Source: Planctomycetota bacterium (GTDB taxonomy: Bacteria; Planctomycetota; Phycisphaerae; WQYP01). From it: DNA of 32,333 bases. This document shows positions 1,646 to 6,367 of the stretch, piece after piece. The notes beneath the pieces are model-generated. The model searched no databases and was not told the origin of the DNA. It saw nothing but the letters and a program-made list of their open reading frames with translations. The DNA is taken from NCBI GenBank assembly GCA_021790475.1, contig JAJYDU010000012.1, positions 1-32,333 of the forward strand. Direction: 5' to 3'. Position 1 is the first letter of the stretch; the number at the start of each line of letters is the position of its first letter. A program made the translations under genes and the position numbers.

Positions 1646-2650
1646 ATGATCAGGACGGAATCCCTGGTGACGAGATTTCTTGCGGCGGCGGCCCTGGTTG
1701 CGGCAATGCTGCTTTTCGGACCGGTCTTACGCGCGGCGCCGCCTCCGCGGCCCGCCGCGACCTGGCTCCTGCAAAACGGCGTTTGGGTTCCCCTGGTGGC
1801 GCCGGGGCAAAGCACGCCCGAAGCGCAAGTGGCGCTGATGGTCCAGAATCTCAATACCGGTCATTATTCCCGCGTGGTTCACCAGGCCAAACGCTGGCTC
1901 AAGAACAAGTTTAACAAGACCAATCCGCTCGTCCCGGAGGTGTTGCTCCTGCGCGGCGACGCTTTCAACGCCAGGGGCGATAAATACGCCGCTTTGTTCC
2001 CCTATGAGGACTTGCTGGACAATTTTCCCAACAGTCCATTGTATGGACCTTGTCTGGAACGCGAATACAACATCGCCTGCGCTTTTTTAAGAGGCTACAA
2101 ACGACGGTTCCTGGGTATGCGGATTCTTCCCGTCGGTGGCGATGCGCTGCGCCTGCTGCGGCGAATCCAGGATCGCCAGCGCGGTTCGCCCCTGGCCGAG
2201 CTGGCCGGCATCCGTGTGGCCGATTACTACTACCACGAGGGCCGCTTTCGCCGGGCTTTGCAATCCTACAAGGACTTCCTTCGCCGTTATCCGTACAGCC
2301 AGTTCGTAATCCAGGCCTCCATCCACGAAATTGAATGTCTGCTGGGCACGTTCCACGGGGTGCGATTCGATATGACTCCTCTGCACAACGCCGAAGCCGA
2401 ACTGGAAACTCTCTCCAGGCGTTACCCGCGTTTCGCCGCCCATCTCCAGGTTAAAGCGCTGGAAGAACGCATCTACCAGTTGGAAGGGGAAAAGGAACTG
2501 CAAATCGCCCGTTTTTACGTTCGCTTCAGTCGTCCCCACGCGGCCGAATATTATTATCGCCGCGTCATGAACGACTGGCCGGACACCATCTGGGCCAAAA
2601 AGGCCCGCCGTGAATTCGCCGCGCATTTCGGCAAGGGGAGCGGTCGATGA
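1646..2650 (+). CDS. Secreted/outer-membrane TPR-like protein (BamD/YbgF-like)
   Basis: ORF 1571..2650; internal ATG 1646 gives signal peptide MIRTESLVTRFLAAAALVAAMLLFGP and helical-repeat segments (YYHEGRFRRALQSYKDFLRRYPYSQF, AAEYYYRRVMNDWPDTIWAKKARRE). Confidence 0.7.
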   Translation: MIRTESLVTRFLAAAALVAAMLLFGPVLRAAPPPRPAATWLLQNGVWVPLVAPGQSTPEAQVALMVQNLNTGHYSRVVHQAKRWLKNKFNKTNPLVPEVLLLRGDAFNARGDKYAALFPYEDLLDNFPNSPLYGPCLEREYNIACAFLRGYKRRFLGMRILPVGGDALRLLRRIQDRQRGSPLAELAGIRVADYYYHEGRFRRALQSYKDFLRRYPYSQFVIQASIHEIECLLGTFHGVRFDMTPLHNAEAELETLSRRYPRFAAHLQVKALEERIYQLEGEKELQIARFYVRFSRPHAAEYYYRRVMNDWPDTIWAKKARREFAAHFGKGSGR

Positions 2651-3255
2651 GAAGGGACGGTTCCATCGGTCCGCCGCGTAGCGGCGACAAGGCGGATTGC
2701 GGCGGCTACGCCCCGGCCGTCCCCGCCCGGAAGTTCGCCGGCCCGGGCGCTCGCGCCACATTATGGATGCGGATCATCAGCGTTTGGCTGTTACTGATCG
2801 CGCCGCTGGCGGGTTGCGGTTATTCGGATTCATCGCTCTACCCGCGCGACATCCGAACCGTGGCGGTTCCGATCTGGCGGAGCGATACTTTTCGCCGGCA
2901 GATTGAATTCCGCCTGACGGAGGCCATCGACAAGAATATCGAAGCCCGCACGCCTTACAGGCTGGCTTCCGTCAAGCATGCCGATTCGGTTTTGACCGGT
3001 CGCGTCGTGGCGGTCCAAGAGAGCGTTCTTAGCAGCAGCTTTCAGACGAATTTGCCCCAGGAAACCCAGGTTACCATCGTGGTGGATTTTACCTGGAAGG
3101 ACCTGCGAACCCAAAAAATCCTGGTGCGGCGAAAGTCTTTCGCCCGTGCCAGCACGGAAATTCCCCAGATCGGCCAGCAACTACCCGATGCCGAGCAGAT
3201 GGCCATCGAACGGCTGGCCCGGGCCATTGTGAATCAGATGCAGGAAGGCTGGTAG
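2647..3255 (+). CDS. lptE: LptE-like LPS-assembly lipoprotein (start could alternatively be 2767)
   Basis: Lipobox in MRIISVWLLLIAPLAGCGYSDSSLYPRDIRTVAVPIWRSDTFRRQIEFRLTEAIDKNIEARTPYRL, typical of the LptE family; ATGA overlap with upstream TPR gene, SD AAGGGGAGCGG before ATG 2647. Confidence 0.75.
   Translation: MRRDGSIGPPRSGDKADCGGYAPAVPARKFAGPGARATLWMRIISVWLLLIAPLAGCGYSDSSLYPRDIRTVAVPIWRSDTFRRQIEFRLTEAIDKNIEARTPYRLASVKHADSVLTGRVVAVQESVLSSSFQTNLPQETQVTIVVDFTWKDLRTQKILVRRKSFARASTEIPQIGQQLPDAEQMAIERLARAIVNQMQEGW
2676..2711. repeat. REP-like GTAG-containing palindrome within the 5' part of the lptE ORF
   Basis: GCGTAGC (2676-2682) and inverted GCTACGC (2705-2711) enclose GC-rich internal repeats; lies between the SD-supported ATG 2647 and the lipoprotein signal at 2767. 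Confidence 0.4.
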
Positions 3256-3307
3256 TCCGACCCGCGCACCACCCGCAGCGGGTCGCGGCGCACTTGAGCC
3301 ACGATCG
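3179..3307 (+). repeat. 129-bp direct repeat copy A (3' end of lptE plus remnant of comB 3' end)
   Basis: Aligned by eye to 4103..4231 at constant offset 924 with 2 mismatches (3189 t/g, 3207 c/t). Confidence 0.97.
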
Positions 3308-3376
3308 CAGATTATATTCCTGAGGATCGTACCATCACCGGGACCTTCTTGGTACAATTTCCCATTGAGGAATGAC

Positions 3377-3592
3377 ATGACCTATCGTGGAACAGTACGA
3401 GGCGGCATTGTGGTCCTGGACGACCCCACCGGCTTGGCCGAAGGGACCGAGGTTGAGGTGGCGCCGCTGTCCGAAACGAAACAGCCCACTTGGGCCGAAG
3501 TCTGGAAAGACGTCATCGGCAAGGCCAAGGGGTTGCCCTCTGACTCCTCGCGCAACCACGATCACTATCTCTACGGTACGGGGAAAAGATGA
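3377..3592 (+). CDS. Antitoxin-like protein of a VapBC-type module
   Basis: MTYRGTVRGGIVVLDDPTGLAEGTEVEVAPLSETKQPTWAEVWKDVIGKAKGLPSDSSRNHDHYLYGTGKR: small N-terminal beta-rich domain; stop overlaps the PIN ORF start (ATGA). Confidence 0.8.
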   Translation: MTYRGTVRGGIVVLDDPTGLAEGTEVEVAPLSETKQPTWAEVWKDVIGKAKGLPSDSSRNHDHYLYGTGKR

Positions 3593-4002
3593 TCGCGCGA
3601 TTTGCCGACACGTCCTATTTCCTCGCCTTATTGATCCCCAACGACGAAAACCACGCCGCAGCTGTCCGATTGTCTGCCTGGACGGGTCCGCTTGTTACCA
3701 CCGACTGGGTATTGGTTGAGACCGGTAACTTCCTTGCCCCGCAACAATCAAGGCGTATCTTTCCGCAATTTGTACGAGCCATGGTCGCGGAGCCGCGAAT
3801 TACCGTCGTTCCGGCCTCGCTCAAAATACTGCAACGGGGCCTTGAACTATACGAGTCTCGTCCGGATAAGGACTGGTCGCTTACCGATTGCACCTCGTTT
3901 ATCGTGATGAGTGACAAGGGAATTGCCGACGCCTTATCCGCCGACCACCATTTCGAACAGGCCGGGTTCACGATTCTTCTCAATGATAGGATACAGGCAT
4001 AG
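3589..4002 (+). CDS. PIN-domain toxin (VapC-like)
   Basis: MIARFADTSYFLALLIPNDENHAAAVRLSA...TTDWVLVETGNFL...SLTDCTSFIVMSDKGIADALSADHHFEQAGFTILL: PIN acidic residues (ADTSYF, VLVE, SLTDC, ALSADHHF). Confidence 0.9.
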   Translation: MIARFADTSYFLALLIPNDENHAAAVRLSAWTGPLVTTDWVLVETGNFLAPQQSRRIFPQFVRAMVAEPRITVVPASLKILQRGLELYESRPDKDWSLTDCTSFIVMSDKGIADALSADHHFEQAGFTILLNDRIQA

Positions 4003-4102
4003 CCGAACGATTTCTTCAACTGAAATCCCAGCCGGCGCTTACGCAGCAACCCCTTCCCGCTTGCCACAGTTATTCGAGACACATGCCCTGCGAGCGGAGA
4101 AA

Positions 4103-4231
4103 AACTACCCGAGGCCGAGCAGATGGCCATTGAACGGCTGGCCCGGGCCATTGTGAATCAGATGCAGGAAGGCTGGTAGTCCGACCCGCGCACCACCCGC
4201 AGCGGGTCGCGGCGCACTTGAGCCACGATCG
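4103..4231 (+). repeat. 129-bp direct repeat copy B (3' end of comB plus remnant of lptE 3' end)
   Basis: Same as copy A at 3179..3307; the lptE 3'-terminal codons recur here without the rest of the gene. Confidence 0.97.
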
Positions 4232-4922
4232 GCCGACTGTTGATCGCCGCGCAGCAGTCGATGTCCTCCTCGAATCCAGCCTGAATTAAGTTCAGGCCGC
4301 CGCTGCCGAGGCGCAGCGCCGCCGGCAGCCGATCCTTCACCGCGGAAAAAGCATGGTACGCCATCCACGCCGTATCGGTGAAGGAAAGATCGCCGCGATA
4401 AGTACCGCCGAAGATGTACCAGAGAATCGCGCCCGCTCCGAGCCAATCTTCCAGCGACACCCGCCCGTCGGTTCCCGCCGGAACAAACAGCGTATGGAGA
4501 TTATCGATCGCCGGTAAAAGAGCCTCGGCGGTAGCCTGGGCGTTGAGCAGAGAGCCGATGTACAGGCGTTGCGCCGCCGCGGCCGCCGTCGCGGCGCGGG
4601 TTCCGTTGGTGGTGCTCAGCAGTACGGTGGCGCCGCCGACAACGTCCGGTCGGTATTGCGCGGGCGAATTGCCCAGATCAAATCCCGGAACCGGCAGGCA
4701 GCCGCGCTCGCCGCCGGCGAGCACGCACGGCGTCGTGGCCCGCAGGGCCGCCCGCGTCGTCGCCACTTCCTCCACGCCGTCAAACAGACGCACTTCCACC
4801 GCCCCGTTGGCCAATGCGGTAACCATGGTGCTGCTGGCGCGCAGCACGTCCAACACCACCACCTGCGATTGCGGCAGCAGAGACGTATCCAGGAGCGAAG
4901 GCAGAAGGACAACGTTTATCAT
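4158..4922 (-). CDS. comB: 2-phosphosulfolactate phosphatase family protein (ComB)
   Basis: MINVVLLPSLLD...VVVLDVLRASSTMVTALANGAVEVRLFDGVEEV...CVLAGGERGCLPVPGFDLGNSPAQY...LLSTTNGTRA: hallmark ComB motifs. Confidence 0.9.
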   Translation of the reverse strand: MINVVLLPSLLDTSLLPQSQVVVLDVLRASSTMVTALANGAVEVRLFDGVEEVATTRAALRATTPCVLAGGERGCLPVPGFDLGNSPAQYRPDVVGGATVLLSTTNGTRAATAAAAAQRLYIGSLLNAQATAEALLPAIDNLHTLFVPAGTDGRVSLEDWLGAGAILWYIFGGTYRGDLSFTDTAWMAYHAFSAVKDRLPAALRLGSGGLNLIQAGFEEDIDCCAAINSRPIVAQVRRDPLRVVRGSDYQPSCI

Positions 4923-4930
4923 TATGATAT

Positions 4931-6367
4931 TTATGCGCTTGCGCGATGATAGGCCGACGTATCTTTCCCCGTGGCAACATTGGAATGAATCTGAAACTTC
5001 GACCGGGGCAACGGCCCCGGGCGGTCCACAACAAAGGCCTTGCCCTGGAAAGTATTGCCGGTGATGACGGCCGTGGCGCAGCGTCTGGTGATGGCGAGGG
5101 CTTTTCTCGTACCGCTGAGAAAAAACAGGCAGTTGGAGATTGTAGCCGGGGCCCCATCACAGAGAATCGCCGGCTCGCCGCGATTGTTTTTATCCCAGTT
5201 CTGAAAATTGCAGCCGATCAGGCTGACCGGGCCGGTTCCCTGGATGGTTCCGATGCGGTTGGAGAGACCCCAGAAAGCACAATTGTTCATGATGACCTGT
5301 CCCGTGTTTTTCGGCCCGATCACAAATCCCTGGGCTTGAGCGCCGACCATGGCGACGAACAAGCCGTTGGTGAACAACAGCCCCCCGTCGGGCTGTCCCG
5401 CGTCCACGCGAATCGCCTCAAAGGTCGAGTCCGCCCCCATACCCAGAAAATTACCATAGCAGGCGCCGCTGGGAGTTTGGACAAAATGATAGCCGATGTG
5501 GTACTGGAGCGCAACGGTATTGAATACATACTGCCCGTCGCTGCGACCAAAACGAAACGCGGTTCCATGATCCTGTATCCATCTGGTGATGGGGATGCCG
5601 CAGCGCCAGAAAGGCCATACAAAATGCGTGTTTTCGATGCGGCCGGTATCGTAGCACTGATCCACATAAATCCCGATGAGAATCGGCCTGCCGAAAACCC
5701 GGTCTATATAGTGCCGCCGGGCAAGAGTCAGATCAATACCCTGATAGGCGTTGGTCAGGTTGACATCAATCACCGAGAGACCCGCCGATCCATCTCCGCC
5801 AAAAGGCGGATGTCCCGTGGGTGGCCGGCTGATATTCTGAATCGTCCAGGGATAGGGCGCCGGCTCAACCGCGTCGGCATGCTGTTGCGGATAATAGATG
5901 CCGAGGCCGCGAATTGTACAGTTCACGCCGCGAACGCTGATAAATGCGGGGCCGTTGGGCCGACCGCGACCTTCCGTCGGCATCAACACCGTACCTTTTC
6001 CAAGTTTTCCGAAAAAGCCCGCGGGTGGGCCGGCGAATACCCCCAGCAGCGCTGTATTGGACGGCATCGTTAAGTGTCCCTTGAACAGAAACCGCCCCGC
6101 CGGCACATGCACAATTCCCCCGCCGGCGGCATGGACGGCGTCCAGCGCTTTTTGAAACGCCGTCGTATTATCCGTTTTGGCGTCGCCCCGGGCGCCGAAC
6201 TTAAGCACATTGCGGGCGAAAGGCGACAGGGGCGATTCGTTGCCGTGGGCCTGGCCCATGAGCATTCCCGTATGGGGCGGCGCACCGCCAACGCTGCGCC
6301 CAGCAAGGGAGGAAACGCCCGCCATGGCCAATGTGGCCATCCAATTACGCCGCGAGAAATCAATCAT
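4931..6367 (-). CDS. Tat-exported right-handed beta-helix / pectate-lyase-superfamily protein
   Basis: Tat-like N-terminus MIDFSRRNWMATLAMAGVSSLAG; NVLKFGARGDAKTDNTTAFQKALDAVHAAGGGIVHVPAGRFLFKGHLTMPSNTALLG. Confidence 0.85.
   Translation of the reverse strand: MIDFSRRNWMATLAMAGVSSLAGRSVGGAPPHTGMLMGQAHGNESPLSPFARNVLKFGARGDAKTDNTTAFQKALDAVHAAGGGIVHVPAGRFLFKGHLTMPSNTALLGVFAGPPAGFFGKLGKGTVLMPTEGRGRPNGPAFISVRGVNCTIRGLGIYYPQQHADAVEPAPYPWTIQNISRPPTGHPPFGGDGSAGLSVIDVNLTNAYQGIDLTLARRHYIDRVFGRPILIGIYVDQCYDTGRIENTHFVWPFWRCGIPITRWIQDHGTAFRFGRSDGQYVFNTVALQYHIGYHFVQTPSGACYGNFLGMGADSTFEAIRVDAGQPDGGLLFTNGLFVAMVGAQAQGFVIGPKNTGQVIMNNCAFWGLSNRIGTIQGTGPVSLIGCNFQNWDKNNRGEPAILCDGAPATISNCLFFLSGTRKALAITRRCATAVITGNTFQGKAFVVDRPGPLPRSKFQIHSNVATGKDTSAYHRASA

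Follow-up and report, generated by a model that had tools for sequence, protein, structure and literature searches.

A toxin–antitoxin module between duplicated gene ends in a Planctomycetota genome: probable insertion with long target duplication

Introduction

An arrangement known as insertion with long target duplication has been reported from Helicobacter pylori 26695/J99, where it concerns restriction-modification genes (Nobusato et al. 2000, Gene 259:99, as cited in PMC1643837, PMC3031569 and PMC3874152). In a 2009 review on toxin–antitoxin (TA) systems, this pattern is cited for restriction-modification systems only. A ParDE-like module beside MaOC1 in Microcystis aeruginosa PCC 7806 (PMC7935541) resembles the module described here in being located downstream of a host gene and between direct repeats, which are identical and 152 bp long; unlike the repeats described here, however, the Microcystis repeat begins 14 bp past the host stop codon and has an inverted repeat of 16 bp within it. 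Neither an interpretation as target duplication nor an empty site is given in the accessible parts of that publication. Mobile TA pairs are also found in Tn3-family transposons (PMC7157771), but these move by means of a transposase, whereas the module reported here has neither a transposase nor terminal inverted repeats and is flanked by a 129-bp duplication.

The module is located in a 32,333-nucleotide stretch of Planctomycetota DNA, which was analysed as a whole and is referred to as the window. As far as the H. pylori cases are recounted in the citing papers (PMC1643837, PMC3031569, PMC3874152), the likeness comprises addiction-type genes, an empty site in a close relative, the lack of a transposase, and direct repeats of about 100 bp, long and variable in length, which correspond to the target sequence. 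In contrast to those cases, the cargo found in this study consists of TA genes (PIN, FitAB-like, MNT/HEPN, ParE) instead of restriction-modification genes, the host belongs to the Planctomycetota, and the target was mostly the end or the start of a gene in the cases examined. A first-pass annotation of the window had considered an undescribed way of TA insertion, which is too strong a wording, since target duplications of about 100 bp are known for restriction-modification genes (PMC1643837, PMC3031569, PMC3874152). In a literature search covering mostly papers outside subscription journals, no publication was found that describes the pattern as common to TA modules in general. To our knowledge, the entry of small TA modules into chromosomes without a transposase or integrase is a long-standing gap.

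Gene ends and direct repeats at the lptE/comB locus

Two intact genes border the module. The open reading frame of lptE (2647 to 3255, plus strand; PF04390, E = 1.5e-11) encodes an LPS-assembly lipoprotein, LptE, and comB (4158 to 4922, minus strand; PF04029, E = 1.6e-58) encodes a 2-phosphosulfolactate phosphatase, an enzyme of coenzyme M synthesis and not a competence protein. The segments 3179 to 3307 and 4103 to 4231 form a direct repeat with a spacing of 924 bp and 127 of 129 positions identical, the mismatches being T at 3189 against G at 4113 and C at 3207 against T at 4131. Besides this pair (BLAST E approximately 1e-51), no other direct repeat of such kind was detected in the 32-kb window. 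The 129-bp unit contains the last 77 nt of lptE, with the stop codon ending at position 3255, as well as the final 74 nt of comB (4158 to 4231); the two coding ends overlap within the unit by 22 nt. The left copy completes lptE and carries a second comB end (3234 to 3307), while the right copy carries a second lptE end (4103 to 4179) together with the live comB end. Both stop codons lie within the duplicated stretch, so that each gene retained an intact end; the second lptE and comB ends are, judged from their sequence, dead and starting to decay.

The insert between the copies comprises 795 bp (3308 to 4102) and was found to contain neither a transposase gene nor terminal inverted repeats. 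A DDE transposon or insertion sequence was rejected as its carrier on account of these two features and of the 129-bp length of the duplication. An Rfam search of positions 2500 to 5000 gave no match to a structured RNA, and nothing exceeding chance level was obtained in a promoter scan. The first-pass annotation had reported the 129-bp repeat with the same identity and offset, an antitoxin and a PIN toxin between the copies, and the entry of the cassette at the cost of neither C-terminus, with lptE completed by the left copy and comB by the right one. The repeat was reproduced on re-comparison, the toxin and antitoxin are borne out by the Pfam match and the homologues described below, and both genes were found complete as stated.

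The structure was read from one fragmented metagenome-assembled genome of 214 contigs, the one assembly of this species covered by the analysis. A collapsed or mis-joined repeat might be suspected in such an assembly, the more so as the longest identical run between the two copies is exactly 100 bp and as some repeat copies at other loci lie at contig ends (L287, L352). Nevertheless, an assembly artefact is extremely unlikely, given that the two differences between the copies both fall into a dead segment, that the insert is unique and continuous, and that the same anatomy was observed in many independent assemblies with copies diverged by approximately 2–18%.

Toxin and antitoxin

The insert encodes a putative antitoxin of 71 amino acids (3380 to 3592, plus strand; possible earlier TTG start at 3365), the stop of which overlaps the start of the gene for a PIN-domain toxin of 137 amino acids (3589 to 4002, plus strand; PF01850, E = 5e-7). 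The toxin residues D7, E44, D100 and D119 are conserved in 115 to 118 of 119 relatives. The nearest relatives with solved structures are VapC20 proteins (5wzf), deposited as 23S rRNA-specific endonuclease, and the toxin is predicted to be a VapC20-like PIN RNase. For the antitoxin, a Pfam search with E values of up to 10 returned no family beyond one non-significant match. Its assignment is based on its position and on its homologues, which are found upstream of most PIN relatives and represent a conserved family of their own. The module thus shares with the VapC20 group of VapBC systems a PIN toxin with conserved acidic active-site residues and a small upstream antitoxin overlapping the toxin start, but the antitoxin differs from VapB proteins in that no DNA-binding family known for VapB in Pfam was recognized in it. 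PADLOC gave no defence match for the module. Among 28 genomes of the family, DNA matches to the insert were limited to short stretches of the paralogous cassette on contig C30 of the source genome (G000) and of one cassette in G004.

The empty site and the age of the duplication

In G001 (contig C49), the only other genome of the genus covered by the analysis, lptE and comB are adjacent; the repeat is present once and the module is missing. Neighbouring lptE and comB genes were found in the window's genus only. The insert is absent at the matching site of this close relative, as is another insert described below (G001:C36), and the flanking repeat equals the single-copy target at the empty site and has a length in the range of 100 bp that varies between loci, which corresponds to insertion with long target duplication. 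The cargo is not a restriction-modification system; this was the original association and lies outside the anatomical definition.

In a three-way comparison with G001, both copies of the window were found to share seven substitutions and a deletion of 2 bp, with no private change in the left copy and two in the right one (4113 and 4131), both inside the dead lptE segment. Since both copies share the differences from G001, the two species had already separated when the duplication arose. By this comparison, it is assigned to the lineage of the window and either coincided with the insertion or shortly preceded it. That an empty site would have one copy and lack the module had been predicted in the first-pass annotation, and the opposite case it had named, an ancestor already having both copies and no module, is contradicted by the single copy in G001. 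The antisense overlap of the two genes, which was taken there as the invaded structure, is present in the window (22 nt) but is a derived feature: no such overlap exists in G001, where the comB stop is located 4 nt beyond the lptE stop and ComB has 246 amino acids. A lineage-specific 2-bp deletion (window 4158 to 4179) lengthened ComB by eight codons from 246 to 254 amino acids and created the overlap with lptE; since the deletion is found in both copies, the overlap predates the duplication.

The same final anatomy would result if the 129 bp had been tandemly duplicated first and the module had entered between the copies later. This order of events is very improbable, as no relative was seen to have two copies but lack the module and as two events at one place would be needed, repeated at every flanked locus. 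A plain tandem duplication, one of the routes suggested in the first-pass annotation, brings in no foreign DNA.

The TA module was probably inserted into the convergent lptE/comB junction after the split from G001 and thereby duplicated a 129-bp target. Insertion with long target duplication is favoured because it accounts for the empty site, for a second copy specific to the lineage, for the restriction of decay to the dead parts and for the survival of both genes. Duplication and insertion would have been one event, which might have taken place at a break whose far-apart nicks were repaired by fill-in, or through template switching during replication. Insertions would survive where the duplicated stretch includes a gene end, and addiction might then guard the module against deletion between the repeats. 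Long target duplications suit compact genomes, because an insertion can be harmless when the duplicated sequence includes gene ends. If the module were excised between the repeats, a small circle would be expected, as would a conflict of RecA-dependent loss with addiction.

Further flanked inserts in the source genome

A direct-repeat survey of 1.16 Mb (43%) of the 2.68-Mb source genome revealed four cases besides the window, one of them ambiguous, and one insert with non-TA cargo; TA cassettes flanked by repeats (>50 bp) of host gene ends, for which a search had been proposed from the window alone, thus do occur elsewhere. A paralogous PIN module on contig C30 (L047) is flanked by 69-bp repeats (86% identity) representing the start of a Uma2-family gene. 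An MNT/HEPN module on contig C22 is flanked by 197-bp repeats (99.5%), which contain the ends of the convergent genes cdsA and acpS, and the corresponding site in G001 (C36) is empty. On contig C92, a VapBC-like module with a FitAB-like antitoxin and a PIN toxin is bordered by a duplicated stretch of gatB of at least 294 bp (98%). A second MNT/HEPN module (contig C55, L287) with 153-bp repeats is regarded as ambiguous, because its repeat contains a dispersed element. The non-TA cargo, a ParA-like ATPase gene on contig C9 (L333, 5163 to 6800), lies between 196-bp copies of the ftsY start; the upstream flank of this locus was not found in G001.

TA cargo was therefore present in five of six repeat-flanked inserts within the 1.16 Mb, one of the five being ambiguous and the tally leaving out tandem paralogues and inserts flanked by a plain dispersed repeat. 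Excluded on these grounds were L242 (tandem PEP-CTERM-like genes), L347 (a tandem gene copy) and L251, the repeat of which recurs elsewhere in the genome. Four PIN matches were obtained in the source genome; three of these are small toxins, all of them flanked, and the fourth is part of a 365-amino-acid frame and was kept outside the flank count. Of the MNT genes on the surveyed contigs, two out of five are flanked.

A different origin of the second copy would be a homology-anchored transfer, in which a donor fragment or circle already carrying a gene end plus the module recombines at the homologous gene end on one side and is joined at the other side illegitimately or by a single crossover, leaving the recipient and the donor version of the gene end on either side of the module. 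Once formed, a repeat-module-repeat unit could indeed excise a 924-bp circle that re-enters empty sites. However, in four cases of the source genome the copies were compared with G001, and 7, 11, 13 and 19 shared differences were counted against 2, 1, 7 and 5 private ones. As the copies share most of their differences from G001, the second copy originated in this same lineage. Moreover, such a transfer leaves unexplained the initial placement of the module next to the lptE/comB segment. As the origin of the window arrangement it is considered unlikely, and insertion with long target duplication is preferred.

Some further features were observed. At L047 (5768 to 7634), an MNT-domain gene directly adjoins the flanked PIN module upstream of the Uma2 gene, so that modules are clustered there. 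At L287 (5870 to 7200), the module adjoins a phage capsid gene, and the element within its repeat, approximately 80 bp long, is found at about ten places in the genome. A 94-bp repeat with a spacing of 414 bp at L332 (5316 to 5822) holds the start of a small open reading frame of 130 amino acids and apparently represents a partial gene duplication.

Repeat-flanked toxins across the phylum

Related PIN loci were drawn from GTDB genomes and from whole-genome searches, which yielded 122 distinct copies with enough flanking sequence. A copy was counted as flanked when located inside a pair of direct repeats of at least 35 bp, with at least 85% identity and a spacing of 500–1500 bp. In this set, which is not fully independent because the window is part of it and some of its genomes are related, 16 of 122 PIN copies (13%) were flanked, compared to 55 of 6174 control positions (0.9%) in the same loci. 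The repeats of L060, L116 and L171 are palindromic or dispersed-looking and may represent a different phenomenon; they are included in the 16 copies, and such repeats are likewise included in the control. Among ParE toxins, 3 of 28 were flanked. The recurrence of the arrangement at other TA modules in the genome and in the phylum suggests a way in which these modules may be mobile in the absence of a transposase.

The repeats differ from locus to locus, and most of those examined hold ends or starts of host genes, among them lysS and folC (both named from sequence), a gene for a sigma-54 regulator, and TPR and AAA genes. Their lengths amount to 69, 129, 196, 197 and at least 294 bp in the source genome and to 39–190 bp in relatives. 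Gene-end targets with direct repeats are reminiscent of islands that restore a gene 3' end, and stacked arrays (see below) of accretion, which could point to site-specific recombination, with the copies as attL and attR and the gene ends as substrate of a trans-acting recombinase. This is very unlikely, since the repeats of different loci have no common core, range from 39 to at least 294 bp, involve many unrelated genes and also 5' ends, and enclose, in the window, an insert without a recombinase. Two specific carriers were rejected as well: an integron cassette, because the flanking repeats share no sequence between loci and hence no recurrent attC, and a tyrosine-recombinase island, because a different gene is concerned at every locus, with no shared att core and no recombinase.

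Several older loci are closer to what homology-anchored transfer would produce. The similarity of the copies ends exactly at the stop codon in L063, L110, L121, L151 and L174. All ten differing codons in L121 are synonymous and two different stop codons are used, and in L174 five of six differing codons are synonymous. Stacked arrays at one gene end were found at L110 (four copies) and L121 (three copies). In view of the stop-codon boundaries and the synonymous differences, one mechanism may not cover all loci. The copies in several of the older loci look like diverged functional gene ends, which suggests that homology-anchored transfer may contribute in addition to insertion with long target duplication. 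A gene end duplicated by such an insertion may provide the homology at which further cassettes dock, so that stacked arrays are formed.

The array of L110 (2375 to 7946) comprises cassettes and four copies of one gene 3' end, each terminating in an in-frame stop codon, and a second repeat family is located further on. In L121 (3916 to 5476), the 3' end of one AAA-type gene is present three times and separates two cassettes; the differences between these copies are synonymous only, and their stop codons differ. Both arrays fit repeated docking at a gene end. The first cassette of L121 carries an aspartyl-protease-like open reading frame and not a PIN toxin.
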